This document shows, in pieces, positions 16,402-31,830 of a stretch of 42,765 nt of DNA (its first letter is position 1; every line of letters begins with the position of its first letter). The position numbers and the translations under genes are program-made. The notes under the pieces are model-generated. The model saw only the letters and a program-made list of their open reading frames with translations, was not told the DNA's origin and ran no database searches. The stretch is taken from assembly GCA_017624495.1 (NCBI GenBank), contig JAGAMY010000024.1:1-42765 (forward strand), read 5' to 3'. This DNA is from Lachnospiraceae bacterium (GTDB lineage: Bacteria; Bacillota; Clostridia; Lachnospirales; Lachnospiraceae).

Positions 16402-16866
16402 ATGAAAAATCTCAAAAAAATCTTATTATGTTGCGCAATGGTGATGTCACTTAGTACATTAACTGCCTGTGGATGTGGTACAACTACAGATAATACAACA
16501 GAGGATAACACTCTGACTACAGAATCAACAACAGACAGAAACGATACAACAAACGAAGGTGTTGTTGATGATGTGGAAAACGCAGTAGAAGACACAGGCG
16601 ATGCCATCATGGATGGAGCTGAAGATATTGGAAACGATATCAAAGACGGTGTAGAAGATGTAACAGGTACAGATAATACTGCAGCAACAGACAATAATGC
16701 GGCAACAGGTACAGATGCAGCAACAGAAAATACAACAGATACCACCACAGAAGATGCAGCAGGTAATGCAGCAGGTAATGCAGCAGCAGAAGATGCGGCA
16801 GCTGATGGTGCAGCGGATAAAACTACAGAAACAGAATCTACAGAAAAGAAAAGTACAGAGCAGTAA
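16402..16866 (+). CDS. Low-complexity acidic/threonine-rich lipoprotein
   Basis: A 154-residue protein with a lipoprotein signal: MKNLKKILLCCAMVMSLSTL followed by lipobox LTAC, so it is lipidated at C23 and anchored on the outer face of the membrane. The rest is low complexity, dominated by T, D, A, E and N, with DDVENAVEDTGDAIMDGAEDIGNDIKDGVEDV as an amphipathic repeat-like section and then T/N/A-rich repeats ending EKKSTEQ. No catalytic domain can be seen. Similar short lipoproteins occur near spore genes in Lachnospiraceae, but the function is unknown. GGAAAGGAGG lies about 14 nt before the ATG. Confidence 0.85.
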   Translation: MKNLKKILLCCAMVMSLSTLTACGCGTTTDNTTEDNTLTTESTTDRNDTTNEGVVDDVENAVEDTGDAIMDGAEDIGNDIKDGVEDVTGTDNTAATDNNAATGTDAATENTTDTTTEDAAGNAAGNAAAEDAAADGAADKTTETESTEKKSTEQ

Positions 16867-16869
16867 TAG

Positions 16870-16906
16870 GAAAGGTGGAAATGGTTTTGCCATTTCTGCC
16901 TTTTTT
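16870..16906 (+). terminator. Terminator after the lipoprotein gene
   Basis: AAAGGTGGAAATGG pairs with CCATTTCTGCCTTT (two mismatched positions) around TTTTG, followed by T6. Confidence 0.8.
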
Positions 16907-16919
16907 AGAAAATTTTTAT

Positions 16920-16948
16920 TTGTTAAAAGCAGAAACATATCATATAAT
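16920..16948 (+). promoter_or_regulatory. Promoter of rpn-like copy 1
   Basis: TTGTTA (16920-16925), 17-nt spacer, TATAAT (16943-16948). The same boxes and spacing precede copies 2 and 3. Confidence 0.8.
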
Positions 16949-16956
16949 CAAGATAT

Positions 16957-17052
16957 CGGACATCATCTATTGTCCGTAAATAACATTTATATTTCTGGTA
17001 TATCGCCAGTGATTCCCAAATATTAAAACTACATAAGAAAGGAAGTTTGCCT
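16957..17052 (+). promoter_or_regulatory. Structured 5' leader of rpn-like copy 1
   Basis: It begins 8 nt after the -10 box with hairpin CGGACA/TGTCCG (16957-16976), then CTGG/CCAG around TATATCG (16995-17009), and ends with the AAGGAAG ribosome binding site. The predicted transcript would start almost exactly at the first hairpin. The element recurs before copies 2 and 3. Confidence 0.6.
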
Positions 17053-18099
17053 ATGCAAAAAAACAAACTGCAGCAGTATTTTCCTATAATTCGTGGAAAA
17101 AAAGAAATTTTAAAAGAAATCGGGAAGAACCCACATTTATTGAATTTGTTTCACTCATGGAAAACAAAGTATCAAAAGGAGTTTTTAGATTTTTGTAGTG
17201 GTGCAAAGGGGATAAAAATTTTATATGATTCCTATTTTAAAGAAGTCATGAATCCCGAATACGATTCCACACGGTTAGAATCATTTATAAGTACTATTTT
17301 AGGTCGTAATGTAAAGATTCTTCAAATTCTTCCCAATGATTCTACCCGCCTGACAGATGAAACCACGCTTCTTTGGACAGATGTTATTGTAGAGTTAGAA
17401 GATGGTTCTATCGCAAATGTGGAAGTACAGAAAATTGGTTATGCATTTTCAGGGCAGAGAAGTGCGTGCTATTCGTCGGATATGCTTTTGCGGCAGTATA
17501 AACGAGTCCGTGGGAAAAGGGGAGATACATTTTCGTATAGGGATATTAAAAATGTATACTTGATAGTGATTTATGAAAAAAGTCCAAAAGAATTTCACCA
17601 GCTACCGGAGATATTTTACCACCATGCCAGACAAGTTTTTGATAGTGGACTTAAGTTGAATCTGCTACAGGAATACATTATGATACCCCTTGACATCTTT
17701 CATGAGAAAATGCAGAATAAAACTATAGAAACAGAATTAGAAGCATGGCTGACATTTTTAAGCAGTGATGAACCGGAGGTTATTATTCAGTTAATTACGC
17801 AGTATCCAAAATTTAAAGCCATGTATGAAACCTTATATCAGATGTGTCGAAACGTGGAAGGGGTAATGCATATGTTTTCAAAGGAATTGCAGATGTTAGA
17901 TAGAAATACAACGATATATATGGTGGATGAGCTGCAGAAAGAATTGGAGCAGAAGGATGAGCAGTTAAGCCGACAAAATCTGCAGTTAAGTCAGAAGGAT
18001 GAGCAGTTAAGCCGACAAAATCTGCAGCTAAGCCAGAAAGATGAGCAAATAGTATTTTTACAAAAACAATTAGAGCAACTACAGAAAAATAAGAAATAA
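17053..18099 (+). CDS. Rpn/PD-(D/E)XK nuclease-family protein, copy 1, with repeat coiled coil
   Basis: A 348-residue protein of the Rpn (recombination-promoting nuclease)/putative transposase family. The nuclease core lies at about residues 60-200: D110 in LLWTDVIVEL and E124-V-Q126 in ANVEVQKIG form the D...ExQ variant of the PD-(D/E)XK site, followed by RSACYSSDMLLRQY. A helical middle leads to a C-terminal coiled coil (about residues 288-345) built from tandem QLSQKDE and QLSRQNL heptads. The ATG at 17053 is used because AAGGAAG ends 7 nt before it; the in-frame TTG at 17047 directly abuts that site. Relatives cut DNA and may promote horizontal recombination; this activity is inferred. 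Confidence 0.85.
   Translation: MQKNKLQQYFPIIRGKKEILKEIGKNPHLLNLFHSWKTKYQKEFLDFCSGAKGIKILYDSYFKEVMNPEYDSTRLESFISTILGRNVKILQILPNDSTRLTDETTLLWTDVIVELEDGSIANVEVQKIGYAFSGQRSACYSSDMLLRQYKRVRGKRGDTFSYRDIKNVYLIVIYEKSPKEFHQLPEIFYHHARQVFDSGLKLNLLQEYIMIPLDIFHEKMQNKTIETELEAWLTFLSSDEPEVIIQLITQYPKFKAMYETLYQMCRNVEGVMHMFSKELQMLDRNTTIYMVDELQKELEQKDEQLSRQNLQLSQKDEQLSRQNLQLSQKDEQIVFLQKQLEQLQKNKK
17947..18045 (+). repeat. In-gene tandem 21-bp heptad repeats of copy 1
   Basis: Repeating units that encode QKDEQLS and RQNLQLS, 21 bp each, four to five in a row. Copies 2 and 3 carry different numbers and orders of the same units. Confidence 0.7.
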
Positions 18100-18106
18100 A
18101 GTATAA

Positions 18107-18155
18107 CAAAAGATTGCCAGAGCAGTAAGTAAGCATTAGGCAATCTTTTGATTTT
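18107..18155 (+). terminator. Terminator after copy 1
   Basis: AAAAGATTGCC pairs with GGCAATCTTTT across a 20-nt loop, followed by a T-rich tail. Confidence 0.7.
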
Positions 18156-18169
18156 AAGAAAAAATTAAA

Positions 18170-18198
18170 TTGTTAAAACAAAAAACATGGAGTATAAT
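18170..18198 (+). promoter_or_regulatory. Promoter of rpn-like copy 2
   Basis: TTGTTA (18170-18175), 17-nt spacer, TATAAT (18193-18198), identical in boxes and spacing to copy 1. Confidence 0.8.
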
Positions 18199-18206
18199 TT
18201 ATTCAT

Positions 18207-18301
18207 CGGATATCTTCTGTTGTCCGTATATAACATTTACATTTCTGGTATATCGCCAGTGATTCCCAAAATCAAAACTACATAAGAAAGGAAGTTTGCC
18301 T
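18207..18301 (+). promoter_or_regulatory. Structured 5' leader of rpn-like copy 2
   Basis: Same layout as copy 1: CGGATA/TGTCCG hairpin starting 8 nt after the -10 box (with a T-G pair in place of C-G), then CTGG-TATATCG-CCAG, then AAGGAAG. Confidence 0.6.
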
Positions 18302-19420
18302 ATGCAAAAAAACAAACTACAGCAGTATTTTCCTATAATTCGTGGAAAAGAAGAAATTTTAAAGGAAATCGGGAAGAAACCACATTTGAGGACACTGTTT
18401 TCTTCATGGAAAACAGAATACCAAGAGGAATTTTTAGATTTCTGTAGTGGAGCAAAGGGGATAAAAATTTTATATGATTCCTATTTTAAAGAAGTCATGA
18501 ATCCCGAATACGATTCCACGCGGTTAGAATCATTTATAAGTACTATATTAGGACGTAATGTAAAGATTCTTCAAATTCTTCCCAATGATTCTACCCGCCT
18601 GACAGATGAAACTACGCTTCTGTGGACAGATGTTATTGTAGAATTAGAAGATGGTTCTATTGCAAATGTGGAAGTACAGAAAATTGGTTATGCATTTTCA
18701 GGGCAGAGAAGTGCGTGCTATTCGTCGGATATGCTTTTGCGGCAGTATAAACGAGTCCGTGGGAAAAGGGGGGATACATTTTCGTATAGGGATATTAAAA
18801 ATGTATACTTGATAGTGATTTATGAAAAAAGTCCAAAAGAATTTCATCAGCTACCGGACATATTTTATCATCATGCCAGACAAATTTTTGATAGTGGACT
18901 TAAGTTGAATCTGCTACAGGAATACATTATGATACCCCTTGACATCTTCCGTGAGAAAATGCAGAATAAAGCTATAGAAACAGAATTAGAAGCATGGCTG
19001 ACATTTTTAAGCAGTGATGAACCGGAGGTTATCATTCAGCTAATTACGCAGTATCCAAAATTTAAAGCCATGTATGAAACCTTATATCAGATGTGTAGAA
19101 ACGTGGAAGGGGTAATGCATATGTTTTCAAAGGAATTGCAGATGTTAGATAGAAATACAACGATATATATGGTGGATGAGCTGCAGAAAGAATTAGAGCA
19201 GAAGGATGAGCAGTTAAGCCAGAAGGATGAGCAGTTAAGCCAGAAAGACGAGCAACTAAGCCGACAAAATCTGCAGTTAAGCCAGAAAGATGAGCAGCTA
19301 AACCGACAAAATCTGCAGTTAAACCAGAAGGAAAAGGAACTGGAAAAAGAGAGAAATGAGAAAAAGTTGTTGTTGGAACAAATAGCAGCATTGAAAAAAA
19401 CAAATAGGAAGCATGGCTGA
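18302..19420 (+). CDS. Rpn/PD-(D/E)XK nuclease-family protein, copy 2, longer coiled coil
   Basis: A 372-residue paralogue of copy 1. The nuclease core is almost identical, including the TDVIVEL...VEVQ active-site residues. Residues 15-45 differ from copy 1 (EEILKEIGKKPHLRTLFSSWKTEYQEEFLDF) and match copy 3 better, so the genes look mosaic. The C-terminus has three QLSQKDE units, then QLSRQNL/QLSQKDE/QLNRQNL units, a KEKELEKERNEKKLLLEQIAALKK helix and a TNRKHG end. The ATG at 18302 has AAGGAAG 7 nt upstream. The last bases (GAAGCATGGCTGA) are also the first bases of a broken fourth copy, so the tail was probably formed by recombination. Confidence 0.85.
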   Translation: MQKNKLQQYFPIIRGKEEILKEIGKKPHLRTLFSSWKTEYQEEFLDFCSGAKGIKILYDSYFKEVMNPEYDSTRLESFISTILGRNVKILQILPNDSTRLTDETTLLWTDVIVELEDGSIANVEVQKIGYAFSGQRSACYSSDMLLRQYKRVRGKRGDTFSYRDIKNVYLIVIYEKSPKEFHQLPDIFYHHARQIFDSGLKLNLLQEYIMIPLDIFREKMQNKAIETELEAWLTFLSSDEPEVIIQLITQYPKFKAMYETLYQMCRNVEGVMHMFSKELQMLDRNTTIYMVDELQKELEQKDEQLSQKDEQLSQKDEQLSRQNLQLSQKDEQLNRQNLQLNQKEKELEKERNEKKLLLEQIAALKKTNRKHG

Positions 19421-19491
19421 CATTTTTAAGCAGTGATGAACCGGAGGTTATTATTCGGCTGATTACGCAGTATCCAAAATTTAAAGCCATG
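19408..19491 (+). pseudogene. Broken rpn-like copy, left fragment
   Basis: Matches the internal segment of copies 1 and 2 that encodes EAWLTFLSSDEPEVII-LITQYPKFKAM, starting without any 5' part and ending at a transposon edge. The duplicated CCATG (19487-19491) joins it to the right fragment at 22515. Confidence 0.85.
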
Positions 19492-19524
19492 TGTCATCCA
19501 GCAAATTAAATACTGCTTGATTCC

Positions 19525-19537
19525 GCAGATTAAAAGA
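19525..19537 (+). repeat. Internal transposon end repeat, left
   Basis: GCAGATTAAAAGA, 33 bp from the left tip; matches the right-end motif in inverted orientation except for one base. Probable transposase-binding site. Confidence 0.5.
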
Positions 19538-19608
19538 GATTTTTTAAGATATGCAGAAGTATCGTGAAGCATATTGTTTGTTGCCGTTTCTGCACATTGT
19601 TTTAGATA

Positions 19609-19640
19609 AAAGAACCATCATGCAGATTACATGATGGTCT
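19609..19640 (-). terminator. Terminator of the transposon operon
   Basis: ACCATCATG pairs with CATGATGGT; on the minus strand the stem is followed by a T-rich tract. It lies just past the ATPase stop codon. Confidence 0.7.
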
Positions 19641-19645
19641 CAAAA

Positions 19646-20457
19646 TCAGCCAAGTTCGCAGTCGTTGATTGCCTGCATAACGGCATCGGTAGTTATGATA
19701 TTTAAATTTGAACTGTTTCCGACCAGCAAGCTGGCGTTACACAGCTTGTTGATCATACGGGGAGTTCCATTTGCAGCGTTTAGGATTGCTTCAAGGGCAT
19801 TTTCTTCAAACACTGTCTGGGAGCATCCGGCACCTTTTAACTTTGCTGCTATGTAGGCATGGCCTTCCGTTTTTGACATGCCTTCAAGGTTATAATTCAT
19901 TACAATCCTTTGACGGAATGGCTCATGTATACTGAGCCTGAGTGTGCTGTTCAGCTGTGGCAGACTGGCAGACCGGCAAGAAGGACAATTGCCCTGTCTC
20001 TGGAATCCATTTCGAAATTAAACAGCATTTTTAAATCATTAAGGACAGCGTTACCGATATAGTTTGCTTCATCTATGATGATGACAGGTGTCTGCCGCTT
20101 TTCAAGGACGAGCCGGTTAATCTCGTTCTGGATGAGCTTGAAGTTATCGGTTTTCCGAAATGCAGGCTGTGCACCGAGTTCAGAAGCCAGATTCCGGTAG
20201 AAGTCATTTACGGTAAGTGTAGACAGGCTGGAGCAGACTACTTTGTATAAGGATGGATTTAACCCGGCAGACCAGTTGCGGATGGCGGTGGTCTTGCCTC
20301 TTCCGGCACTGCCGGTTAGTAAACCGAAGCCTTTGGTGGTCAGTAGATAATTCAGACGAAACAGAACTTCCTTGTATTCCTGAGATTCTACAAGAACCTC
20401 TTTTGAGTTTTTTAAGAAGGGGTTAAATTCCAACCCGTATCTGGCAGTGTAATCCAT
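19646..20457 (-). pseudogene. Transposition AAA ATPase (ExeA/TniB-like), frameshifted by an 8-bp duplication
   Basis: The first 168 codons carry Walker A GSAGRGKT (49-56), Walker B IIIDEAN (D129-E130) and the sensor segment LLAGLP, then run out of frame and stop at 19951. The true C-terminal half, beginning QLNSTLRLSIHEPFRQRIV and ending with the helical lid AILNAANGTPRMINKLCNASL, resumes in another frame and stops at 19646. The cause is visible: GTCTGCCA occurs twice in tandem (19958-19973), and removing one copy restores LAGLPQLNS. The intact protein would regulate target choice for the DDE transposase, whose stop is 2 nt upstream of this start. Confidence 0.88.
19958..19973. repeat. 8-bp tandem duplication in the ATPase gene
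   Basis: TGGCAGAC TGGCAGAC on the plus strand. Deleting one unit joins the two halves of the ATPase in frame. Confidence 0.9.
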
Positions 20458-20459
20458 GG

Positions 20460-21704
20460 CTATTCATCTCCTTTACAAAGGTGTATTTTTTCTCTTTTGA
20501 TCAATGCGTTTTCTGTTTTGTTTAAAAGCCGGATAGGAGTCAGTGTCCCATCTGTTTCAACAACAAAGATATCTTTCATATCCGGAGAATATCGAAGGCG
20601 GATACGCTGACGGGCAAACCGACAGTCTGCTTCGTATTCGATTTGGTCGATCACTATGACGCAGTCGGCGGAAACACGGCGTTCGATCTCCAGGAGAAAA
20701 TCTTTGTCGATATCATCTGCAGGAAGTCTGCGAATCTGTTCCGGTTCAGAAAAGAAGCGGTCCTGCGGAGACATTCCCCGCAATGAAGAATGAATGTTCT
20801 GATTATACTGCTGGACATAAGCATGAAGGCTTCCCCTTAGTTCGTCCAGTGAATGGAAATCCTGCATATCAAGACCGGACATCCACTGATCCTTAAGTGT
20901 GCGGAACCAACGTTCAATCTTTGCTTTTCCGGTCGGAGTATATGGCTGACAGTAGCTAAGTGTTGTGCCGATTCTGGCTGCAAGAAGCTCCATCTGTTTA
21001 TTTTTATAAGATTTTCCGTTATCAAAGTTGAGTACTTTTGGACGTCCATACTTTGATATGGCTGATTTCATGACAGACATCAGGTTTACAAAGTTATCAT
21101 TATAAAAGACATCAATACCTGTAATGAAACGGCTGGCATCGTCAATCAGGGCGATGATGTAAATACGGTGCTTTTTTCCGTCTTTATCAGTAAGCCTGGG
21201 GCCTGCGCTGCTGTCACCACACCACACTTCATTGATGTGTGGACGTTCATAACGCCGCATATCCCTGTTGGGTGTCTGCCGGAGCTCATTCTGAAGCTGA
21301 TTAATGAAGCGGCAGACTGTGGATTCGGAAACCTGACCATTAATTATGGAACCATCGGCTTTTAATTGTCTGTAGATGGCTGCCGCCGACATACGCGGAT
21401 AGTTGGATTTAAAATATCTGATTCGTTCCTGCAACTCATCGTCAAGTTTACGGCTCATGCCGGCATCGGACCTTCCTTTAGGAACAAGGGCATCAAAACC
21501 ATGCTTCTGGTAATCAAGATACCATTTCTCAATAGTTGCCGGAGCATAATGGTGAATACGTCCGTCAGGGCCTGGCAGCCCTTTGGCGGAAACTTCGGTG
21601 TAAAAAGCAGTCTTGCTGGGATAGTTTTCATCCAGTCCGGCTATAAGCGGAGCAATCGCACCATAGCGCATAAGTGCGATTTCCTGTTGTTTTTCTTGTT
21701 TCAT
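20460..21704 (-). CDS. DDE transposase, Mu/Tn552-type integrase fold
   Basis: A 414-residue transposase. Residues 1-140 hold two helix-turn-helix segments (ATIEKWYLDYQKHGFDALVPKGRSD and SESTVCRFINQL). The rve catalytic core has D164 (WCGDSSAGP), D228 (VLNFDNG) and E264 (GKAKIERWFRTLKDQ), with 35 residues between the last two. A Mu-type C-terminal beta-barrel domain follows (about 310-400, with RRVSADCVIVIDQIEYEADCRFARQRIRLRYSP). It should cut the element's ends and join them to target DNA. It appears intact, with AGGAGG about 11 nt before the ATG, and is followed after 2 nt by the ATPase. Confidence 0.92.
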   Translation of the reverse strand: MKQEKQQEIALMRYGAIAPLIAGLDENYPSKTAFYTEVSAKGLPGPDGRIHHYAPATIEKWYLDYQKHGFDALVPKGRSDAGMSRKLDDELQERIRYFKSNYPRMSAAAIYRQLKADGSIINGQVSESTVCRFINQLQNELRQTPNRDMRRYERPHINEVWCGDSSAGPRLTDKDGKKHRIYIIALIDDASRFITGIDVFYNDNFVNLMSVMKSAISKYGRPKVLNFDNGKSYKNKQMELLAARIGTTLSYCQPYTPTGKAKIERWFRTLKDQWMSGLDMQDFHSLDELRGSLHAYVQQYNQNIHSSLRGMSPQDRFFSEPEQIRRLPADDIDKDFLLEIERRVSADCVIVIDQIEYEADCRFARQRIRLRYSPDMKDIFVVETDGTLTPIRLLNKTENALIKREKIHLCKGDE

Positions 21705-21765
21705 ACTGTTTTTGCCTCCTTTTTTCTAAAAGGATAGCGAAAAAGAAGAAAGCTGTCGTGTAAGG

Positions 21766-22299
21766 TTATGTTGGTAAAAGAAAAAGTTTATTACGGGTTG
21801 TTTTAATCTGCATAAATTGTCTTGAAAAATGAGAAAAACAGCCCATGACAAGGAAACTCCATTCCAAGGCGGCAAGTCCAGCTGAACGAAGCCTCTCTTT
21901 CCAATGGAGCCGGTAAGAGCGGATGAGAGCTCTTAGATTATTTTCGTCAATGAAACACTGCTCTTCCAGCAGGTATTTAAGAGGGGTACCGGATTCATAA
22001 GCATGAACAGCAGCTATGTGCATATCCAGGGGAAACTGGGAATAGGGAACCATGGAAGAAAGAAGAAGGGCATGTGTGTGTCCACAAGCTGTGCAGTAGA
22101 CGCGTGCTACAGACAGTGAGAGAACCGAATTTTTCAGCTGCACTTTTCTTTTGTAAGAGCCATAGCGGATTAGGCAACCGGAATGACCACAGGTACAGGG
22201 AACAAGGTTTAAATCGAGAGAATCTATGGTTTTATTATAAAAATCTTGAGAAATAAGGTTGTAGTTTTCTGTTTTGATTGTTATCATAGGAATGAACAT
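21766..22299 (-). CDS. DUF6431-like transposon protein with zinc-binding cysteines
   Basis: A 177-residue protein, first gene of the transposon. Residues 30-80 contain CTCGHSGC and CTACGH knuckles, suggesting one zinc site that would bind DNA, followed by a helical region with ALIRSYRLHWKERL that looks like a helix-turn-helix. I recall this domain as DUF6431, commonly encoded beside DDE transposases and AAA ATPases in Lachnospiraceae; the number should be checked. Its role, end recognition or target choice, is unknown. The start at 22299 is the first ATG; MITIKTENYNL at 22287 is an alternative. It is 62 nt upstream of the transposase start. Confidence 0.7.
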   Translation of the reverse strand: MFIPMITIKTENYNLISQDFYNKTIDSLDLNLVPCTCGHSGCLIRYGSYKRKVQLKNSVLSLSVARVYCTACGHTHALLLSSMVPYSQFPLDMHIAAVHAYESGTPLKYLLEEQCFIDENNLRALIRSYRLHWKERLRSAGLAALEWSFLVMGCFSHFSRQFMQIKTTRNKLFLLPT

Positions 22300-22458
22300 G
22301 GCGCAAGAGCGTTATGTTGTGGTATAAAGGCAGAAATCAAACTTTGGTCGGGGAGATTTCTGCTTTTTTTCTTGGTTACAATTAAACATGATAGCACAAG
22401 AAGTCTCAGGATAAAACAATCTGATGGAAAATACGTCAGATTCTCTTATGCTGTGACT

Positions 22459-22471
22459 TCTGTTAATCTGC
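22459..22471 (-). repeat. Internal transposon end repeat, right
   Basis: On the minus strand GCAGATTAACAGA, 43 bp from the right tip; pairs with the left-end motif at 19525. Confidence 0.5.
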
Positions 22472-22514
22472 TTGAAAAGTTGGAAATAAGTTTTTTATAA
22501 AGTGTTGGATAACA

Positions 22515-22770
22515 CCATGTATGAAACTTTATATCAGATGTGTCGAAACGTGGAAGGGGTAATGCATATGTTTTCAAAGGAATTGCAGATGTTAGATAGA
22601 AATACAACGATATATATGGTGGATGAGCTGCAGAAAGAATTAGAACAGAAAGTCGAACTGTTAAGCCAGAAAGATGAGTAGCTAAACCAAATAGCCAATG
22701 AACTAGAAAAAGAAAGAGCAAAACAGCATTATTGCGGAAAAAGCTGGAAATGTTACAAAATAGCAAATAG
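22515..22770 (+). pseudogene. Broken rpn-like copy, right fragment
   Basis: Continues the reading of the left fragment (19408-19491) from CCATGTATGAAAC: YETLYQMCRNVEGVMHMFSKELQMLDRNTTIYMVDELQKELEQK. A TAG interrupts the coiled coil at about 22678, and the tail has drifted. With the left fragment and the 5-bp target duplication it reconstructs one truncated gene. Confidence 0.85.
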
Positions 22771-22779
22771 TTAAAATAC

Positions 22780-22822
22780 AAAGACTGTGAAGAGAATATC
22801 GTCATTCGCAGTCTTATTTTTT
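22780..22822 (+). terminator. Terminator after the broken rpn-like copy
   Basis: AAGACTGTGAA pairs with TTCGCAGTCTT (one T-G pair), followed by ATTTTTTAT. Confidence 0.75.
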
Positions 22823-23219
22823 ATTTCAGCAGTTAAAGTTGAAATATTTTCTACTACCATTCCAGATAGGTATTTAAAGGAGAATCTGTATGGAATTATT
22901 GTGTGAAATAATGTATCAGATATTGTCAGAATAGTAAAAACTAAATATTTTTCACTAAAATTATGTACATAATGATAATAAAATACATTAAATAATAAAA
23001 TAGTACATAAAATTATAAGAAAATGTATGGTGAAAATTGTAGTAAAAACGTATAATAAAGTATGAAAATTTGTGCAGAAATACAAGCACAGGGAGGGGGA
23101 TAGATAGTGGAATGTTTTATGCGTTCCAAATTACTAAAAACCGGAGAACCGGAATTTTGGTTAAGCCAAGATAAAGGATTCTGGTTTGTGTAAAAAACTA
23201 TATGAAAAGGAGTAAAAAA
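22823..23219 (+). other. AT-rich leader region of the surface protein gene
   Basis: About 400 bp without a coding frame. The first 240 bp are extremely A+T-rich. A TATAAT at 23051-23056 with a weak TGGTGA 17 nt upstream is the best promoter candidate. Between 23125 and 23190 there are short CCGG/CCGG and AACC/GGTT pairings, possibly leader structure; I do not recognise a riboswitch. Confidence 0.4.
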
Positions 23220-26200
23220 ATGGGAAAAGGAAAAAGATTTTTAGCCTGGTTCCTGGCGGCAGCACTTACGGTTACAAGTGTGAATATAGGAACACCTGCT
23301 TCTGTTAAGGCAGAAGTGACAGATGCTAACTTAGTAGCAGGTTATACATTTGATAGTACGATTGATGCAACGACAAAGGTGGATGATGATACAATCCAGA
23401 CAAGTATTGTTGGTGCAGGTGTTTCAGAGTCTACAGCAGAAGCTGCATATACAACTGGACATGATGGTACAGAAAATGGAGCAGTTCAGTTGGGAGATTA
23501 TGGTTTAAAATTGAACAGGACAAATATCGGGACGAGTTATACAGTATCATTTTGGGTGAAAAGAGATGGAAGTAAGTATCTTAGCAATGACCAAAATAAA
23601 ATGGTGTTGTTGATGTTGGGAGATAATACAAGTCAGGCAGTTACCGTTGATCAATATTGGGGCGGTCCGGATATTCGAGCTAGAAAGATAGATGGCGGTG
23701 ATGGAGGAAATTCAATTATTACACAATACAAAGAATTTACAGCAAGCGTATGGCATATGCTCACAGTATCCCAAACAGGTACACAGACAGATATATATGT
23801 AGATGGAAAACAGATTGCACTGAATGCTGAAAATTCTGTTGAACCATTAAATGGTGAAGCACAGGATATTATTTTAGGTGTGTCATATGCAAAGGGGAAT
23901 ACTGCAAATGCATATGTTTATCCTGCAGCCATCGATGATCTTGTCGTATACAATTCAAACATGACATCTGCTGAAGTTGCAAAGCTTTATTTACAGCAGG
24001 CTACAGAAGCAGAACGTCTTGCATATCTTGGCATGGATGAGACATGTGTGAAAGAACTTCCGTCAGAAAAAAATGGTCTTGCGATTACATGGTCTTCATC
24101 TGATGGCGAAGCAGTTGTAGACGGAAAGTTAATGGAAGTGCCAGACGGCAGAACAGTTACATTGACAGCATCCGCAGATGGCGAAAAGCTATTTGACCAG
24201 GAAGTTACACTTGCTACAAGCGTAACATTAAAACGTATTGTACCGGGAACAGATGGCGCAGCCGATACAGAGTTGGAAACAAAGGTCATCGAAAAAGGTG
24301 CACAGAAATTAGGTGGTTCTTATACATATGCAACTGTAGGCGAGGATGCGGTATATGTGTCCGAGGGAATCGTATATGTACTGGATTCTGAAAATAGTAC
24401 ATTAAAAGTAGATTCTTTAAAAACCACAGAAGAGAATGTAGTTACTTTAGCATATAAGCAGGATGCTATTGCAAGTGTAGCAACATTAGAAACAATTTAT
24501 ACAATTGAGGGCAATTCTCCATTAATGCCAGCAACAGTAGAAGTTACAACAGAAGGTGGCACTACAATTGACACTGCTGTTGTATGGGAGGATACAGATA
24601 ATCTTGAAGTTGGAAATCATACAATTACAGGAAGTGTAGCAGGCTATGATGGTGATGTTACAGTGGATGTTTGTGTATATGCATGTGATGGAGCAGGAAT
24701 AGAGGAAGCTGAAATAGAAAAAAATCAGAACAGACCATATTATGCATTTGCAGGAAATAAGCAGTACGGTGGTGAGGTGGTAATTTCCTTTGACATTACT
24801 CCGCAAGGCACAGAAGATATACCTGTATTATATAGGGATAAGACAAGTGAAACGAAAGATGATCAGTATGGTATGTCTAGAATTGACCTTCGTTTCAATG
24901 GAAAAAATGCAGCTTATGAGATTAAAGTAAGAAATGATGCTAATGATGGTCATGAAGTACTTGGTTACTATACTAATGGAAAAACATACAGAGTATGGAT
25001 TACTGCAGATACTGCAAAAAAAACATATAACATAAAGGTATATGATGTAAAAACGGCTGAAATAGTTGCAGAAAAAGAAAATGCTATATACAGAAATCAA
25101 GAAAGTGTAAACGGTCTGACAGGTTATACAGTTGACAATACCACAAGGGGTGCATACATTACCAACCACAAAATCTTCTGGCAGTCCGGCTATGCAAAGA
25201 AAAATGTAAATATTTATGTAGATGGTGAAAAAGTTGTATCAGAAACCTACAAAGAGATGCCGGCAAGCAATCATACTTATACACCGGAAGCTGAGTACAC
25301 ATATGAAGATAAGACATATTTCATTGATGAAGAGACTTCAGGCTGGGTAGATGGTAAGAATACAACAACAGCAGCGAATGATGAAATTACTTACAATGTA
25401 TATTATGTAGCAAGTGCAAACTTCGATGTACTTGAAACTGCAATTAATGAAGCAGATGCTGACTATCAGGCGGCAGTTAAAGCAAAAGTCTATACAGAAG
25501 AATCTTTGAAAGTATGGGAAGATGCTCTTGCAGCAGCAAAAGCTGTATTAGCAACAAAAGATACAGAAGATGAAGCTGACGCAACAGAAATAACAGAAGC
25601 TACAAATACATTAAAAACAGCAATTGAAACCAATCCATTAGTTGCAGCTGATTTAGAAACAGTAAATGAAAAAGCACTTACTGCATGGTATCCATTAACA
25701 GATGATGCAAAAGATGTAACAGGAAATGGATATGATGGAACAGCAAAAGGCGTAACATTTGATAGAGAAGATGGAGCGAAATTTACATATGCAAAAGATG
25801 TAAAATTAGGCAGTTATATCAGTTTGCCAACAGATATGTTTTTAGAGTCAGAAAATTTAACAGTTTCTTTTTGGGCAAAAGATATAAGTACACAGGAATC
25901 ACAGGCAGTATTTGGTTTTGGTTCTGGTTATTATGATTTGAGAGATACTACAAATGATGCCAACACATACAAATATGTTTTGATTAATACAAATAAAGGT
26001 CGCAATTTGAAGACTGTTATTACACGTAATTCATGGGCAGGCGAAACAGGATTTAAAGGAGATGCAGCGTCAGGTAATATTTCATATCCAGAAAATACAT
26101 GGGCACACATTACTTGTGTATTTGAAGGAACAAAGATGGCAGTTTACAAAGATGCTGTACTAGCAGGTACAGTTGATACTGGAATTAAGGTGACAGAGTT

Positions 26201-28157
26201 AGGAACTACGCAGGATGCTAGGATTGCTTATATTGGTAATTCGATTTGGGGAACTAATGATCCTGATTACAACGGTAACGTAAAAGATTTCCGTGTATAC
26301 GATGCACCACTGAAAGATTCTCAGGTAAAAGAAATTTATGACTACATGGGAACACTTCCAATGAAATATGCAAAAGAAGATGTTCTTACAAAAGTAAAAG
26401 AAGCAATCGGAACAGACAATGTTGTTGTTGCAGAGGATGGAACAGTTACATTAAATATTTCAGAAGAAGCAGTTACACTTCCAACAACAGGTGTACAGGG
26501 TGAAACAATCACATGGGCATCTGCAAATGAAAATATTGCAGTTACAGATGGAACAGCAACTGTAACATTACCAAAAGATACTGCTACAGTAGTAGAGGGT
26601 AACTTAACAGCAACAATTACAATTGGCGAGGAAGTTGATACAGTAATTTTTGCAACAAAAGTATTTACAAAAAATAATACAAATGTTACTGCATTACAGC
26701 AGGCAGTAGCAGATGCAGAAAAGAATGGTTATGTGGCAGAAGATTATACAGTAGCTACATGGACAGCATATGCAAATGCATTAGCGGCAGCAAAACAGAA
26801 TATTGCACAGCCACCAGCAACAGAAGATGAGGTAGCAGCTTTAGTAAAAGCTTTAACAGAAGCAGATAAAGCATTAGTGAAAGTGACAGATTTAAAAGCA
26901 GCAATCGCAGACGCAAAAGCTTTAACAGAAGCAGATTACACAGAAGCAAGCTGGACAGCAGTAGAAGCAGCTCTTGAAGCAGCAGAAGAAGTTGTTGCTG
27001 ATGCACAGGCAACACAGAAAGCTGTTGACGATGCATTAGCAGCATTAGCAGAAGCAGTTGGCAAATTAGTTACTCTTGCTGAACAGGAAATCATCGAAGC
27101 AAAAGACGATTTAACAGCAGCAATTGAAGAAAAGACAGCAGATTTAGTTGAAGCTGATTATACAAAAGCAAGCTGGGAAGCATTACAGGCAGCTCTTGAA
27201 GCAGCAGAAGAAGTTATCAACAGCAAAGATGCAACAACAGAAGATATTGAAGCAGCAAAAGCAGCAGTAGAAGATGCAGTTGCAGCATTGAAATTACAGA
27301 CAGAAGCTGACGAAGAAGCAGCATTAGAAACAGCTAAGACAGAATTAGCAGCAGAAATTACAGTTGCAGACGATTATGTAGCAACATTAAAAGAAACAGA
27401 CTATACAGCAGAAAGCTTGAAAGCTGTTAAAGATGCAATTGCAGCAGCAAAGGCATTAGCTGACAAAGAGGATGTGACAGCAGAAGAACTTACAACAGCA
27501 AAAGATTCTATTACAAAAGAGGCTATTGATAAGGTATTAGTAAAAGTAACATCTTCTACACCATCCACACCAACTACACCACAGACTCCGGCAGAACCGG
27601 AAAAACCGGCAGTAACAGATGTAAAAGTAAGCAGCATCAAGATTACAAACAAAAATGTGAAAATTGCAGCAGGTAAGAAAGTTGCATTAGTAGCTGAAGT
27701 TGGACCAGAAAATGCTACAAATAGTGATGTTGAATGGTCTATCGCAGCAAAAGATGCAAAATATGCAAGTGTAAATGCAGCTGGTGTAGTAACTACTAAG
27801 AAAAAAGGTGCTGGCAAGAAAGTTACTGTTACAGCAACAGCAAAAGATGGAAGCGGCGTTAAAGCAACTGTTAAAGTTCAGATTATGAAACACGCTGTTA
27901 AATCCATCAAATTAAAAGCAGCTAAGAAACAGGTAGTTGCTGGCAAGAAAGTAAAAATTAAAACAACCGTTAAGACAACAGGTAAGAAAGTGAACAAGAC
28001 ATTAGCTTGGACTTCTTCCAACGACAATTGGGCAACCGTTAGCAGTAAAGGTGTAGTTTCTACTAAGAAAGCTGGTAAAGGTAAGACTGTTACTATTACA
28101 GCAACATCTACAGACGGTACAAACAAAAAAGCAAAAGTTAAAATTAAAATTAAATAA
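23220..28157 (+). CDS. Large secreted multidomain surface protein (LamG, Big_4, FIVAR, Big_2), no catalytic domain seen
   Basis: A 1645-residue exported protein. The signal peptide MGKGKRFLAWFLAAALTVTS...VKA is cleaved near residue 32. Approximate order: LamG/concanavalin-like domain 35-260; Ig-like strands to 340; Big_4-like domain 425-485; a second beta-sandwich 490-655; FIVAR-like helices 733-807; second LamG-like domain 810-1045; Ig-like 1053-1150; four Ala/Glu-rich FIVAR units 1153-1440; a Pro/Thr linker; two Big_2 domains to the end. No glycosidase active site, LPXTG or SLH motif is visible, so it may bind glycans or cell wall through the Big_2 domains. ATG 23220 is preferred over 23202 because AAGGAG lies 7 nt before it. 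Confidence 0.88.
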   Translation: MGKGKRFLAWFLAAALTVTSVNIGTPASVKAEVTDANLVAGYTFDSTIDATTKVDDDTIQTSIVGAGVSESTAEAAYTTGHDGTENGAVQLGDYGLKLNRTNIGTSYTVSFWVKRDGSKYLSNDQNKMVLLMLGDNTSQAVTVDQYWGGPDIRARKIDGGDGGNSIITQYKEFTASVWHMLTVSQTGTQTDIYVDGKQIALNAENSVEPLNGEAQDIILGVSYAKGNTANAYVYPAAIDDLVVYNSNMTSAEVAKLYLQQATEAERLAYLGMDETCVKELPSEKNGLAITWSSSDGEAVVDGKLMEVPDGRTVTLTASADGEKLFDQEVTLATSVTLKRIVPGTDGAADTELETKVIEKGAQKLGGSYTYATVGEDAVYVSEGIVYVLDSENSTLKVDSLKTTEENVVTLAYKQDAIASVATLETIYTIEGNSPLMPATVEVTTEGGTTIDTAVVWEDTDNLEVGNHTITGSVAGYDGDVTVDVCVYACDGAGIEEAEIEKNQNRPYYAFAGNKQYGGEVVISFDITPQGTEDIPVLYRDKTSETKDDQYGMSRIDLRFNGKNAAYEIKVRNDANDGHEVLGYYTNGKTYRVWITADTAKKTYNIKVYDVKTAEIVAEKENAIYRNQESVNGLTGYTVDNTTRGAYITNHKIFWQSGYAKKNVNIYVDGEKVVSETYKEMPASNHTYTPEAEYTYEDKTYFIDEETSGWVDGKNTTTAANDEITYNVYYVASANFDVLETAINEADADYQAAVKAKVYTEESLKVWEDALAAAKAVLATKDTEDEADATEITEATNTLKTAIETNPLVAADLETVNEKALTAWYPLTDDAKDVTGNGYDGTAKGVTFDREDGAKFTYAKDVKLGSYISLPTDMFLESENLTVSFWAKDISTQESQAVFGFGSGYYDLRDTTNDANTYKYVLINTNKGRNLKTVITRNSWAGETGFKGDAASGNISYPENTWAHITCVFEGTKMAVYKDAVLAGTVDTGIKVTELGTTQDARIAYIGNSIWGTNDPDYNGNVKDFRVYDAPLKDSQVKEIYDYMGTLPMKYAKEDVLTKVKEAIGTDNVVVAEDGTVTLNISEEAVTLPTTGVQGETITWASANENIAVTDGTATVTLPKDTATVVEGNLTATITIGEEVDTVIFATKVFTKNNTNVTALQQAVADAEKNGYVAEDYTVATWTAYANALAAAKQNIAQPPATEDEVAALVKALTEADKALVKVTDLKAAIADAKALTEADYTEASWTAVEAALEAAEEVVADAQATQKAVDDALAALAEAVGKLVTLAEQEIIEAKDDLTAAIEEKTADLVEADYTKASWEALQAALEAAEEVINSKDATTEDIEAAKAAVEDAVAALKLQTEADEEAALETAKTELAAEITVADDYVATLKETDYTAESLKAVKDAIAAAKALADKEDVTAEELTTAKDSITKEAIDKVLVKVTSSTPSTPTTPQTPAEPEKPAVTDVKVSSIKITNKNVKIAAGKKVALVAEVGPENATNSDVEWSIAAKDAKYASVNAAGVVTTKKKGAGKKVTVTATAKDGSGVKATVKVQIMKHAVKSIKLKAAKKQVVAGKKVKIKTTVKTTGKKVNKTLAWTSSNDNWATVSSKGVVSTKKAGKGKTVTITATSTDGTNKKAKVKIKIK

Positions 28158-28176
28158 TCAAACTTAGCTTAAAATG

Positions 28177-28222
28177 AAAAAGCTGCCATACTTACGAATA
28201 CTGTAAGTGTGGCAGCTTTTAT
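28177..28222 (+). terminator. Terminator of the surface protein gene
   Basis: AAAGCTGCCATACTTAC pairs with GTAAGTGTGGCAGCTTT, 17 bp with one mismatch region, followed by TTTATA. Confidence 0.9.
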
Positions 28223-28280
28223 ACTCTCTAATACTCTGGCAGAAGAATTACACTATCAGCGGACTTCAAGAATAACCCTT

Positions 28281-28379
28281 ATGAATGAGCTGCTCACCTG
28301 CTATCAGTACCTTAAAGAACGCGATATGCTGCTCTTATACGAAGCATATCGTAATGGTGTAGAATTACTATTTGACTAA
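28281..28379 (+). pseudogene. Possible 32-codon remnant of an unrecognised gene
   Basis: An in-frame ATG encodes MNELLTCYQYLKERDML followed by LLYEAYRNGVELLFD and TAA. It reads like the helical C-terminus of a longer protein, and the frame stays open a little upstream of the ATG without a ribosome binding site. It could be chance. Confidence 0.3.
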
Positions 28380-28398
28380 ATGATTAAGGTATTAAATA

Positions 28399-28421
28399 TG
28401 GCGGTCAAAATCTGACCGCCA
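28399..28421. terminator. Perfect 9-bp hairpin after rpn-like copy 3
   Basis: TGGCGGTCA pairs with TGACCGCCA across AAATC. On the minus strand it lies 50 nt past the copy 3 stop and is followed by an AT-rich but not uniform T tract. Confidence 0.5.
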
Positions 28422-28470
28422 TAAAAAATCAAAATAATTTACACACTTTACTTGACAAACCCCTTTTCAA

Positions 28471-29568
28471 TCAGTTATGCTTCCTATTTGTTTCTTGTAA
28501 TGCTGCTATTTGTTCCAGTAACATTCTTTTTTCTCTTCGCTCTTTTTCCAGTTCCTTTTCTTTTTGGCTTAGCTGCAGATTTTGTTGGCTTAGCTGCTCA
28601 TCTTTCTGGCTTAACTGCTCATCTTTCTGGCTTAGCTGCTCATCTTTCTGGCTTAGCTGCTCTTCCTTCTGTTCCAATTCTTTCTGCAGCTCATCCACCA
28701 TATATATCGTTGTATTTCTATCCAACATCTGCAATTCTTTTGAAAACATCTGCATTACTCCTTCCACATTTTGACACATTTCATATAAAGTTTCATACAT
28801 GGCTTTAAATTTTGGATACTGCGTAATCAGCTGAATAATAACCTCCGGTTCATCACTGCTTAAAAATGTCAGCCATGCTTCTAATTCCGTTTCTATAGTT
28901 TTATTCTGCATTTTCTCATGGAAGATGTCAAGGGGTATCATAATGTATTCTTGTAGAAGATTTAGCGATAGACCGCTGTCAAATACTTGTCGAGAATGAT
29001 GATAATATTTATCTGGCAATTCATGAAATTCCTTGGGACTTTTTTCATAAATCACTATCAAGTATACATTTTTAATATCCCTATACGAAAATGTCTCTCC
29101 CCTTTTTCCACGAACCCGTTTATACTGACGTAAAAGCATATCCGACGAATAGCACGCACTTCTCTGTCCTGAAAATGCATAGCCGATTTTCTGTACTTCC
29201 ACATTTGCGATAGAACCATCCGCTAATTCTACGATAACATCTGTCCAAAGCAGCGTGGTTTCATCTGTCAAACGGGTAGAATCGTTGGGCAGAATCTGAA
29301 GAATCTTTACTTTATATCCTAAAATAGTACTTATAAATGATTCTAACCGCATCGAATCGTATTCGGGATTCATGACTTCTTTAAAGTAGGAATCATATAA
29401 AATTTTTATTCCTTTTGCTCCACTACAGAAATCTAAAAATTCCTCTTGGTATTCTGTTTTCCATGAAGAAAACAGTGTCCTCAAATGTGGTTTCTGTTCA
29501 ATCTCTTTTAAAATTTCTTCTTTTCCACGAATTATGGGAAAATACTGCTGTAGTTTGTTTTTTTGCAT
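28471..29568 (-). CDS. Rpn/PD-(D/E)XK nuclease-family protein, copy 3, inverted
   Basis: A 365-residue paralogue on the opposite strand. It keeps the TDVIVEL...VEVQ nuclease residues, the RSACYSSDMLLRQY segment and the helical middle. It differs from copies 1 and 2 at scattered places (ILGYKVKIL for ILGRNVKIL, RGKRGETF for RGKRGDTF, SLSLNLLQEY for LKLNLLQEY) and has its own repeat pattern: one QLSQKEE, three QLSQKDE, one QLSQQNL, then the KEKELEKERREKRMLLEQIAALQE helix. The ATG (29566-29568) has AAGGAAG 7 nt upstream. Its inverted orientation relative to copies 1 and 2 makes a long inverted repeat around the surface protein. Confidence 0.85.
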   Translation of the reverse strand: MQKNKLQQYFPIIRGKEEILKEIEQKPHLRTLFSSWKTEYQEEFLDFCSGAKGIKILYDSYFKEVMNPEYDSMRLESFISTILGYKVKILQILPNDSTRLTDETTLLWTDVIVELADGSIANVEVQKIGYAFSGQRSACYSSDMLLRQYKRVRGKRGETFSYRDIKNVYLIVIYEKSPKEFHELPDKYYHHSRQVFDSGLSLNLLQEYIMIPLDIFHEKMQNKTIETELEAWLTFLSSDEPEVIIQLITQYPKFKAMYETLYEMCQNVEGVMQMFSKELQMLDRNTTIYMVDELQKELEQKEEQLSQKDEQLSQKDEQLSQKDEQLSQQNLQLSQKEKELEKERREKRMLLEQIAALQETNRKHN

Positions 29569-29663
29569 AGGCAAACTTCCTTTCTTATGTAGTTTTGTTT
29601 TTTGGATTTACTGACGATATGCCAGAAATGTTAAATTTGTTTACGGACAATAGAAAATATCCG
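29569..29663 (-). promoter_or_regulatory. Structured 5' leader of rpn-like copy 3
   Basis: Minus strand: CGGATA/TGTCCG hairpin (29644-29663) starting 8 nt after the -10 box, then CTGG-CATATCG-TCAG (29611-29625), then AAGGAAG. Base changes relative to copies 1 and 2 keep the pairing through G-T pairs. Confidence 0.6.
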
Positions 29664-29671
29664 ATACAGAA

Positions 29672-29700
29672 AGTATATGCTATTTATATGGTTTTAACAA
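29672..29700 (-). promoter_or_regulatory. Promoter of rpn-like copy 3
   Basis: Minus strand TTGTTA (29695-29700), 17-nt spacer, TATACT (29672-29677); same -35 and spacing as copies 1 and 2. Confidence 0.75.
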
Positions 29701-29744
29701 ATGAATTTTTTCTAAATTCTTCATATGGGATGAAACTTTTTTTC

Positions 29745-29773
29745 TTGTCATAAAAGTACATTCATGCTACAAT
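29745..29773 (+). promoter_or_regulatory. Promoter of the deleted Rpn-type gene and capA-like gene
   Basis: TTGTCA (29745-29750), 17-nt spacer, TACAAT (29768-29773). It faces away from the copy 3 promoter. Confidence 0.7.
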
Positions 29774-29862
29774 CGAACCAAAGCATATTTTCTTTATGAC
29801 AAATCAAATATCTAATATTTCTAAATTCAGAAAATCCATGCTTGAAACCCAATAAATACAAA

Positions 29863-29892
29863 AGCAGAAGGATTTTCAGAAAACCTCCTGCT
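29863..29892 (+). promoter_or_regulatory. Leader hairpin before the deleted Rpn-type gene
   Basis: AGCAG, AGG and TTTT pair with AAAA, CCT and CTGCT around CAG with two mismatches. It ends 5 nt before the AAGGAGG site. It could be a weak attenuator or stability element. Confidence 0.4.
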
Positions 29893-29911
29893 TACATAAG
29901 GAGGAAAAGAT

Positions 29912-30382
29912 ATGTCAGAGAAAAAAGTGACACGCTGCTACAAAGATACGATATTTCGAATGTTATTCAGGGAGAAAGAAAATTTACTAAGTCTGTATAG
30001 TGCAAGGTTGATAAAGCTGCCTACACCAAGATTTGTTATTTTTTACAATGGTACGACAGAGCAGCCGGAGAAACAGACATTAAGACTATCCGATGCTTAC
30101 GAAAAGCAGTTAGATGTCCCGGAACTTGAGCTGATAGTTACCATATATAATATAAATATAGGAAACAATCCTGAATTATTAGAATCCTGTCAGACTTTAA
30201 AGGAATATGCCGAATATGTGGAACAGGTTAGAAGATTTGCCAAAATTCTACCACTACCGGAAGCAGTAGAAAAGGCAGTAGATTATTGCATACAGAACAA
30301 TATATTAGCAGATTTCCTGAAAAAGAACCGTGCGGAGGCGATAGAAATGAGTATATTTGAGTATGATGAAGAAAAGGAATAA
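29912..30382 (+). CDS. Rpn-family protein lacking its nuclease core (internal deletion)
   Basis: A 156-residue protein that starts like the larger Rpn/PDDEXK putative-transposase subfamily (YKDTIFRMLFREKENLLSLY) and continues with its C-terminal part (KLPTPRFVIFYNGTTEQPEKQTLRLSDAYE, TLKEYAEYVEQVRRFA, MSIFEYDEEKE). In typical members, roughly 70-80 residues with the D/E...K active site lie between SLYNA and the SLYS-RLIKLP segment. Here SLYSA joins the two directly, so recombination between the two similar SLY(S/N)A coding stretches probably removed the core in frame. AAGGAGG lies 7 nt before the ATG. It is 2 nt from the capA-like gene, so it is still translated with it. It is likely inactive as a nuclease. 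Confidence 0.7.
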   Translation: MSEKKVTRCYKDTIFRMLFREKENLLSLYSARLIKLPTPRFVIFYNGTTEQPEKQTLRLSDAYEKQLDVPELELIVTIYNINIGNNPELLESCQTLKEYAEYVEQVRRFAKILPLPEAVEKAVDYCIQNNILADFLKKNRAEAIEMSIFEYDEEKE

Positions 30383-30384
30383 GC

Positions 30385-31830
30385 ATGAAGAAATATATTA
30401 TATTAATAGTATCCACAATATCCATAATTTTCACAGGCTGCGCAGAAAATAAACACTTAGAGGAATTCATGCAGTCCTTAAAGTTAGAGAACAGAAAAGC
30501 AGCTACAGCATCTGTAAATCATGCAGTAGTAACAGATACCGAACAGCTTACGCTGCCGATAAAAACAGAAGAAATAAACCTGCATCAGTATTACCAGACC
30601 ATCATCAAACAAACCACCGAGGAAACCAATCAGGGTTATATACTAAATGAAGCCTTTTTAAACTGGTTTACCGAAGAATATGGTACTGACCGCATAAAAG
30701 AAATCGCAGATTGTATCGAAACTGGTAAACAATCCCCGGATTTCTGGTATGAGCAGACTGGAAATACTATGCATGTTCTATGGATGAATTACTGCAAAGC
30801 CACCGGTATTCAGCCGTATCGTTTGGAAAATGCGGAATGGAAAGATTGTGCAAGTGAAGATGAGGTTACATTAGCCTTTACCGGAGATATTAATTTTTCC
30901 GAAGGATATGTCACCACAAAACATTTAGATAGAGCAGAAAATGGTATACAGGATTGTTTTTCAGAGGATTTGCTTACCGTGATGAATACTATGGATATCA
31001 TGATGATAAATAACGAATTTACCTATAGCACCAGAGGAAAAGCACTTGCCGGAAAAGCCTATACATTTCGTGCCGACCCGTCCCGTGTAGAGTTGCTTGA
31101 AACATTCGGTACAGACATTGTAAGCCTTGCAAACAATCATGTGTATGATTTTGGTCCCGAAGCATTGTTAGATACCATTTCCACATTAAATGAAGCTGGA
31201 ATACCAAATATCGGTGCAGGGGCAAATCTTAAAGAGGCTTCGAAACCCTATTATTTTATCTGTAATGGCAGAAAAATTGCCATTGTGGCAGCCACACAAA
31301 TTGAGCGTTCCCTTAATTATACAAAAGAAGCTACAGCAGACAGTCCAGGGGTATTAAAAGCTCTAAAACCGGACAAGTTTGTAGAGGTAATAAAAAATGC
31401 CAAAAAAGACAGTGACATTGTCATTGCTTTTGTTCACTGGGGAACGGAAGGTGACAGCAATTATGGCAGAGACCAAAACGAACTGGCAAAGGCATTTGTC
31501 GAAGCCGGAGCAGATGCCATTATTGGTGGGCATACCCATTGCCTGCAAGGGTTTGAAATCATGGATGGTGTTCCTATTATTTATAGTCTGGGAAATTTCT
31601 GGTTCAGTAGTAAGACGCAGGATACCGGGCTTGCAAAGCTGACGATTGATGATAAGGGAGAGCTGACATTAAGTTTTATTCCATGCATACAGCAGAATTT
31701 TTGTACATATCTTGTGACAGAGGAAGTGGAAAAGAAGAGGATTTTAGATTTTATGCAGGAACATTCTGCTCCGGAGATTCTGGTGACACCAGAAGGTGAA
31801 GTGTATTGTAACGATGAAAGTATCGAATAG
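30385..31830 (+). CDS. CapA-family lipoprotein (poly-gamma-glutamate synthesis-type metallophosphoesterase)
   Basis: A 481-residue CapA/PgsA-like protein. The N-terminus is a lipoprotein signal (MKKYIILIVSTISIIFTGC, lipidated at C19), so it acts outside the membrane. The calcineurin-like fold is shown by LAFTGDINFSEG (metal-binding D), MMINNEFTYSTRG, IVSLANNHVYDFGPEA, VHWGTEGDSNY and IIGGHTHCLQGFEI. Homologues support poly-gamma-glutamate capsule handling, but no pgsB/capB-type ligase lies in the window, so a capsule role is uncertain. It starts 2 nt after the deleted Rpn gene and likely shares the promoter at 29745. Confidence 0.9.
   Translation: MKKYIILIVSTISIIFTGCAENKHLEEFMQSLKLENRKAATASVNHAVVTDTEQLTLPIKTEEINLHQYYQTIIKQTTEETNQGYILNEAFLNWFTEEYGTDRIKEIADCIETGKQSPDFWYEQTGNTMHVLWMNYCKATGIQPYRLENAEWKDCASEDEVTLAFTGDINFSEGYVTTKHLDRAENGIQDCFSEDLLTVMNTMDIMMINNEFTYSTRGKALAGKAYTFRADPSRVELLETFGTDIVSLANNHVYDFGPEALLDTISTLNEAGIPNIGAGANLKEASKPYYFICNGRKIAIVAATQIERSLNYTKEATADSPGVLKALKPDKFVEVIKNAKKDSDIVIAFVHWGTEGDSNYGRDQNELAKAFVEAGADAIIGGHTHCLQGFEIMDGVPIIYSLGNFWFSSKTQDTGLAKLTIDDKGELTLSFIPCIQQNFCTYLVTEEVEKKRILDFMQEHSAPEILVTPEGEVYCNDESIE

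Follow-up and report, generated by a model that had tools for sequence, protein, structure and literature searches.

A probable structured RNA leader upstream of rpn-like genes in Lachnospiraceae

We analysed a stretch of 42,765 nucleotides from a Lachnospiraceae bacterium (contig JAGAMY010000024.1; "the window"), which contains three rpn-like genes. Each of these genes is preceded by a leader with two short hairpins. The structured leader is real and probably a feature of the RNA, and we put the chance that its structure is under selection at roughly 75%. Judging from the sequences of related genes, the leader is found more widely, and varies more, than the window alone shows.

Reading the sequence directly and aligning the copies showed the same layout in all three, as originally predicted: TTGTTA, 17 nucleotides, TATAAT or TATACT, 8 nucleotides, hairpin 1, hairpin 2, AAGGAAG, and the ATG. 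In a consensus scan, all three copies have a sigma-A-type promoter of their own. Exactly 7 nucleotides past the -10 box, every copy has an A (A16955, A18205, and A29665); this is the predicted +1, two bases 5' of hairpin 1 and 97–98 nucleotides from the ATG. Where stem bases differ between the copies, they are C or T opposite a G, and the pairing survives via G·U, as had also been noticed at the outset. The hairpin 1 pattern (with up to 3 mismatches) is found at these three sites only in the assembly, which is 54.67% complete, and a reversed control pattern has no matches.

The three genes are recent paralogs (7/88, 24/84, and 24/86 differences at fourfold sites), so they cannot be counted as three independent cases. 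The best explanation is that the promoter, the ~98-nucleotide leader, and the gene were duplicated as one unit. The original prediction stressed the spacings of 17 and 8 nucleotides. These are exact in all three copies, mostly by inheritance because the copies are recent paralogs, but relatives do not preserve the 8 (it is 15 in L126 and 20 in L018; L numbers are our labels for homologous loci).

Within the window, just 0.3–1.5% of shuffles of each copy's leader give a hairpin of -4 kcal/mol or lower at -60 to -36, for a band that was picked after the window had been seen. The mean pairwise identity of the three copies is 87% in hairpin 1 and 91% in hairpin 2; it is 46% in the 8-nucleotide discriminator, 63% in the 17-nucleotide spacer, and 78% in the stretch between the hairpins.

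We searched for homologs in 15 genomes of the genus, 250 of the family, 392 of the order, 3 from the genus of genome G045, 62 from a Roseburia-like genus, the nine genomes behind the loci, and genome contigs. The gene is patchy: it is present in 30 of the 250 family genomes (at E 1e-40), 15 of the 392 order genomes (at E 1e-80), and 4 of the 62 Roseburia-like genomes (at E 1e-90). The search gave 99 distinct upstream regions, which form 70 sequence clusters. (The cluster set left out 42 rows: 18 short or inner, 18 duplicates, and 6 without a start. The set for the initial reading of leaders left out 29 rows.) The closest relatives share about 56–66% protein identity with the window's genes, and their leader hairpins return with other letters. 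In group A (L012, L016, L049, and L050), GGCGGC pairs with GCCGCC (GCTGCC in L050), and GCCTG pairs with CAGGC. In group B (L018, L020, and L043), hairpin 2 is GCCGG/CCGGC. For hairpin 1 of group B, ACATTCAT pairs with ATGAATGT in L020, and GCGTTCGC pairs with GTGAATGC in L043, which amounts to 6 substitutions within an 8-base-pair stem with all pairs preserved. The hairpin 1 stem of L018 is unrelated to these two. L014 (identical to L126) has two leader hairpins, and in L052 hairpin 2 alone was called near the gene. The stems differ, yet the end of hairpin 2 falls 40–44 nucleotides before the ATG in all of these (groups A and B, L052, and L014) and in the window; this placement is reached in 0.3–4.5% of shuffles for each leader tested (L014 was left out of this test). 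A structured leader near the predicted 5' end, as suggested at the outset, is supported, and it extends to many related rpn genes, which have hairpins there with the letters changed.

Leader hairpins are also in excess over shuffles and over other genes. The best hairpin per leader averages -7.15 kcal/mol (over 93 leaders), versus -3.72 kcal/mol for shuffles (the standard deviation of the shuffle means is 0.31). In 67/93 leaders versus 20/57 neighboring genes, the stretch from -100 to -15 has one or more hairpins of -5 kcal/mol or lower, and it has two or more in 22/93 versus 2/57, with related leaders counted separately. With one leader per cluster, 29/70 clusters have a hairpin at -75 to -36, versus 6/50 control genes (Fisher p = 0.0003); our conclusion rests on this wider band. 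The post hoc band of -60 to -36 gives 14/70 versus 0/50, and a third band that we tried, -60 to -20, gives 20/70 versus 6/50 (p = 0.024). Among clusters with a promoter score of at least 8.5, a hairpin starts 3–20 nucleotides past the best -10 box in 19 of 43, versus 4 of 24 controls (p = 0.02) and 8% of shuffles.

The inverted repeats could instead be DNA operators that bind a repressor, an arrangement common to many toxin-antitoxin operons. An inverted repeat over or just after the start point is in the classic place for an operator, and the sequences are kept inside groups. If the palindrome is read as DNA, then a change in either arm should be equally harmful, with no preference for G·U. 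To count stem changes, we used the window and groups A–D, leaving out other small clusters, hairpin 1 of L022 (which has an N in the loop), and the unrelated hairpin 1 of L018; L031 and L033 were placed in group C by hand. The stems were also paired by hand, because palindromic arms are misplaced both by RNAalifold (run on the mixed alignment) and by MAFFT (run on pieces of hairpin 2). One-sided changes from Watson-Crick pairs gave G·U 15 times, A·C 2 times (p = 0.0023), and other mismatches 6 times, all at stem ends; in the same stems, 5 pairs changed on both sides. Terminal pairs are biased in this count, as stems were selected by pairing, and the internal pairs alone gave 11 G·U, 1 A·C, and 2 two-sided changes. 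The clearest example is hairpin 1 of L020 compared with that of L043, described above. Because the changes prefer G·U to A·C, albeit in hand-chosen stems, we favor RNA over a DNA palindrome, and operators seem improbable.

It had been suggested that covariation should be seen across wider homologs. The stems are too divergent between groups to share alignment columns. Within groups, covariation was modest and varied from one group to the next: the L098 group has 2 two-sided pairs (26 of 500 shuffles reach this), and RNAalifold recovers the same hairpin there, but the L022 group has none.

Another use for an RNA hairpin would be autoregulation, in which the Rpn protein, or a small C-terminal antitoxin, binds the hairpins of its own leader and represses translation, with each subfamily's protein reading its own hairpin. 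The stem letters are indeed constant inside a subfamily and different between subfamilies, and the bias towards G·U is consistent with RNA. Such co-divergence is plausible, as passages of a study of E. coli describe RpnS as blocking only its own RpnL (PMC10327210). However, in the portions of the Rpn literature available to us, RNA binding by Rpn proteins is not described, and we consider autoregulation unlikely.

Several results weigh against the reading that we favor, which is set out below. Folding of the whole leaders is unexceptional (z-scores against shuffles of -1.64, -0.99, and -1.61). Between hairpin 2 and the ribosome-binding site, the unpaired sequence has 86% identity among the three copies, on par with hairpin 1, so the conservation of the hairpins is not singular. 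Hairpin 2 of L013 lies farther upstream, outside the band, and L015 and L093 have no hairpin inside the band. At stricter promoter scores, the distance from promoter to hairpin does not differ significantly from controls (11/29 versus 3/14, and 5/15 versus 2/10). By our criteria, no leader hairpin was called in 19 of the 70 clusters. RNAalifold did not recover the hairpins from the mixed alignment of close relatives, and in the L022 group, which has no two-sided change, pairing is 94.3%, versus 95.1% for shuffles.

We also considered that the hairpins might be a functionless by-product: intergenic palindromes, former terminators, or stems that arose by chance and were carried along as the gene was duplicated. 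This would fit with the recent paralogy of the three copies, the weak z-scores, the clusters without a leader hairpin, and the control genes that do have a hairpin at -75 to -36. However, it does not account for the excess of hairpins over shuffles and control genes, for the fixed place of hairpin 2 while its stems change, or for the G·U bias and the two-sided changes. On balance it seems rather unlikely.

What would a selected leader do? Tentatively, and at slightly under even odds, we propose that the 5'-end hairpin stabilizes the full-length (toxin) transcript. Transcription would start just 5' of hairpin 1, and the leader would be an RNA element whose first hairpin lies a few bases from the predicted 5' end, with some 42 nucleotides between the end of hairpin 2 and the ATG. 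The hairpin would shield the 5' end from decay that depends on that end (by enzymes of the RppH and RNase J type in Firmicutes) and would thereby set how long the full-length toxin mRNA lasts; the ribosome-binding site would stay free. A short antitoxin transcript that begins within the gene, of the kind made by E. coli rpn genes, would not have the leader and might be controlled separately. In other words, we infer that the toxin transcript alone carries the leader.

In the window copies, the ribosome-binding site is predicted to be open: its mean pairing is 0.20, 0.23, and 0.17 in copies 1, 2, and 3. (A hairpin at the start codon is also predicted in the window copies; we set it aside. The leaders of relatives were read by eye.) In the three window leaders, the consensus scan found nothing terminator-like and listed no opposite-strand promoter. 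An alternative is attenuation, with a leader hairpin that stops transcription unless a signal intervenes, and a hairpin followed by a T-rich stretch does occur in 13/70 clusters versus 4/50 controls. However, the window leaders lack a terminator, and a leader hairpin was called in 51 clusters, 38 of which have no T-rich stretch after it, which makes attenuation very improbable. Given these results and the open ribosome-binding site, a 5' hairpin that blocks decay is the simplest reading.

5' stem-loops that stabilize mRNA are described for B. subtilis and E. coli in passages of PMC3997798, whose reference titles include studies of the stem-loop leaders of aprE (B. subtilis) and papA (E. coli). 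The rpn leader resembles these in having a short stem-loop near the predicted 5' end, an open ribosome-binding site, and, in the window copies, no terminator. It differs in having two hairpins; also, its start is predicted and its stabilizing effect is putative. Furthermore, many rpn relatives have a predicted unpaired 5' tail of more than 2 bases (in the window it is 2 nucleotides, as predicted from the -10 box). According to the same passages, RppH of B. subtilis favors G at the second position (PMC3997798); the second base of the predicted window transcripts is U.

Genes of the Rpn type are widespread, and those of E. coli work as anti-phage toxin-antitoxin systems. In passages of PMC10327210, the E. 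coli genes are described as also yielding, from inside the gene, a shorter transcript and a small antitoxin; there, the cause of the differing levels of RpnL and RpnS is stated to be not known. A leader confined to the long transcript would supply a concrete site for this missing control. As a long shot, we speculate that the leader hairpins of Lachnospiraceae rpn genes change quickly in sequence, are kept in structure, and mark only the toxin transcript, so that the cell, or attack by a phage that alters RNA decay, could shift the ratio of toxin to antitoxin via mRNA stability alone.

The products of the window genes resemble the genes-within-genes toxin-antitoxin pair RpnL/RpnS (COG5464) in having a nuclease domain of the PD-(D/E)XK type. 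All three proteins match PF12784 (PD-(D/E)XK nuclease family transposase domain) at 69–71 bits, with a cut-off of 27.4, whereas E. coli Rpn has PF04754. None of NCBIfam's Rpn models matched the three proteins, PADLOC gave weak coiled-coil matches and nothing else, and a search of viral contigs gave no relative. The three genes would encode DNA-cutting proteins, probably with an anti-phage role. Like RpnL, each has a candidate internal start, followed by a C-terminal part that is variable and bears repeats: there are ATGs at residues 272 and 274 in all three copies, with AAGGGG or AAGGAG upstream, and the predicted C-terminal products would have 75–101 amino acids. The coiled-coil repeats that follow the candidate start are of 7 residues, versus four in E. 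coli, and their number varies between the copies. The internal ATG and the variable repeats are as expected for an RpnS-like antitoxin. The consensus scan also gave a candidate internal promoter in the window copies, TTGACA-17-CAGAAT. The portions of the E. coli work available to us mention no leader.

Type I toxin mRNAs have structured 5' untranslated regions and hidden ribosome-binding sites, and antisense RNAs act on them. The rpn-like genes are similar in that a putatively toxic gene has a structured 5' leader; unlike those mRNAs, their ribosome-binding site is predicted to be open, and no opposite-strand promoter is listed in the leaders.

The claim that no such rpn leader has been described held up within the sources covered, Rfam and the open PMC library; a keyword search of the latter for a leader of this kind gave no paper. 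In Rfam, nothing in the window at 16800–30500 reached the gathering score, and 20 homolog loci gave one tRNA and no match to the leader. In word searches of the open PMC literature (supplements and subscription papers lie outside it), "hairpin", "leader", "untranslated", and "stem-loop" were absent from the main texts of two papers on Rpn proteins. The best sub-threshold Rfam match in the region, ctRNA_pT181 (22281–22377), is outside the leaders. SpF25 (16868–16959, minus strand), which overlaps the copy 1 promoter and an upstream terminator, scored 26 bits against a cut-off of 48.

The coordinates of the features are collected in Table 1.

Table 1. Coordinates of the rpn-like genes, their upstream signals, and related features in the window
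Feature	Position	Strand	Basis
Copy 1 promoter, TTGTTA-17-TATAAT	16920..16948	+	TTGTTA 16920-16925, TATAAT 16943-16948; consensus scan 10/12
Copy 1 hairpin 1, CGGACA-8-TGTCCG	16957..16976	+	sequence, folding
Copy 1 hairpin 2, CTGGT-ATATC-GCCAG	16995..17009	+	sequence, folding
Copy 1 ribosome-binding site, AAGGAAG	17039..17045	+	sequence; predicted open
rpn-like gene, copy 1	17053..18099	+	348 amino acids, PF12784
Copy 2 promoter, TTGTTA-17-TATAAT	18170..18198	+	TTGTTA 18170-18175, TATAAT 18193-18198; consensus scan
Copy 2 hairpin 1, CGGATA/TGTCCG	18207..18226	+	sequence, folding, assembly pattern search
Copy 2 hairpin 2, CTGGT/GCCAG	18245..18259	+	sequence, folding
rpn-like gene, copy 2	18302..19420	+	372 amino acids, PF12784
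Copy 3 promoter, TTGTTA-17-TATACT	29672..29700	-	TTGTTA 29700-29695, TATACT 29677-29672; consensus scan
Copy 3 hairpin 1, CGGATA/TGTCCG	29644..29663	-	sequence, folding, assembly pattern search
Copy 3 hairpin 2, CTGGC/GTCAG	29611..29625	-	sequence, folding
rpn-like gene, copy 3	28471..29568	-	365 amino acids, PF12784
Candidate internal-start C-terminal parts	17866-18099, 19115-19420, 28471-28755 (-)		ATG with ribosome-like site
rpn remnants	19381-19497 and 22511-22717		flank integrase/AAA/DUF6431 genes

Some relatives have other arrangements near the start of the gene. By eye, the leaders of L034, L035, L036, and L038 open with a long hairpin and a T-rich run soon after the -10 box and look attenuator-like (L035 and L038 were also flagged in the count of U-runs). 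L098, L099, L104, L106, L108, and L111–L115 have repeated CTTAAGA-type palindromes around the promoter, which look operator-like by eye. In L141, L146, L151, L154, and L163, which are other PF12784 genes of the family, a strong hairpin (-9.5 to -14.8 kcal/mol) immediately before, or no more than 5 nucleotides from, the ATG overlaps the ribosome-binding site. Strong pairing of this site was no commoner than in controls (10 of 32 folded genes versus 12 of 50). An ATTYCCA-like motif past hairpin 2, seen by eye, showed modest enrichment only (15/70 versus 2/57, or 16/70 versus 5/57 for another form), and we make no claim for it.

Between the two rpn remnants, the minus strand of 19403–22717 encodes an integrase (rve), an AAA protein, and a DUF6431 protein. 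By eye, the ends of this element look like those of a TGT...ACA transposon with a 5-base-pair direct repeat, and we take it to be similar to Tn552/Tn5053. The second remnant keeps the same internal start and has an early TAG.

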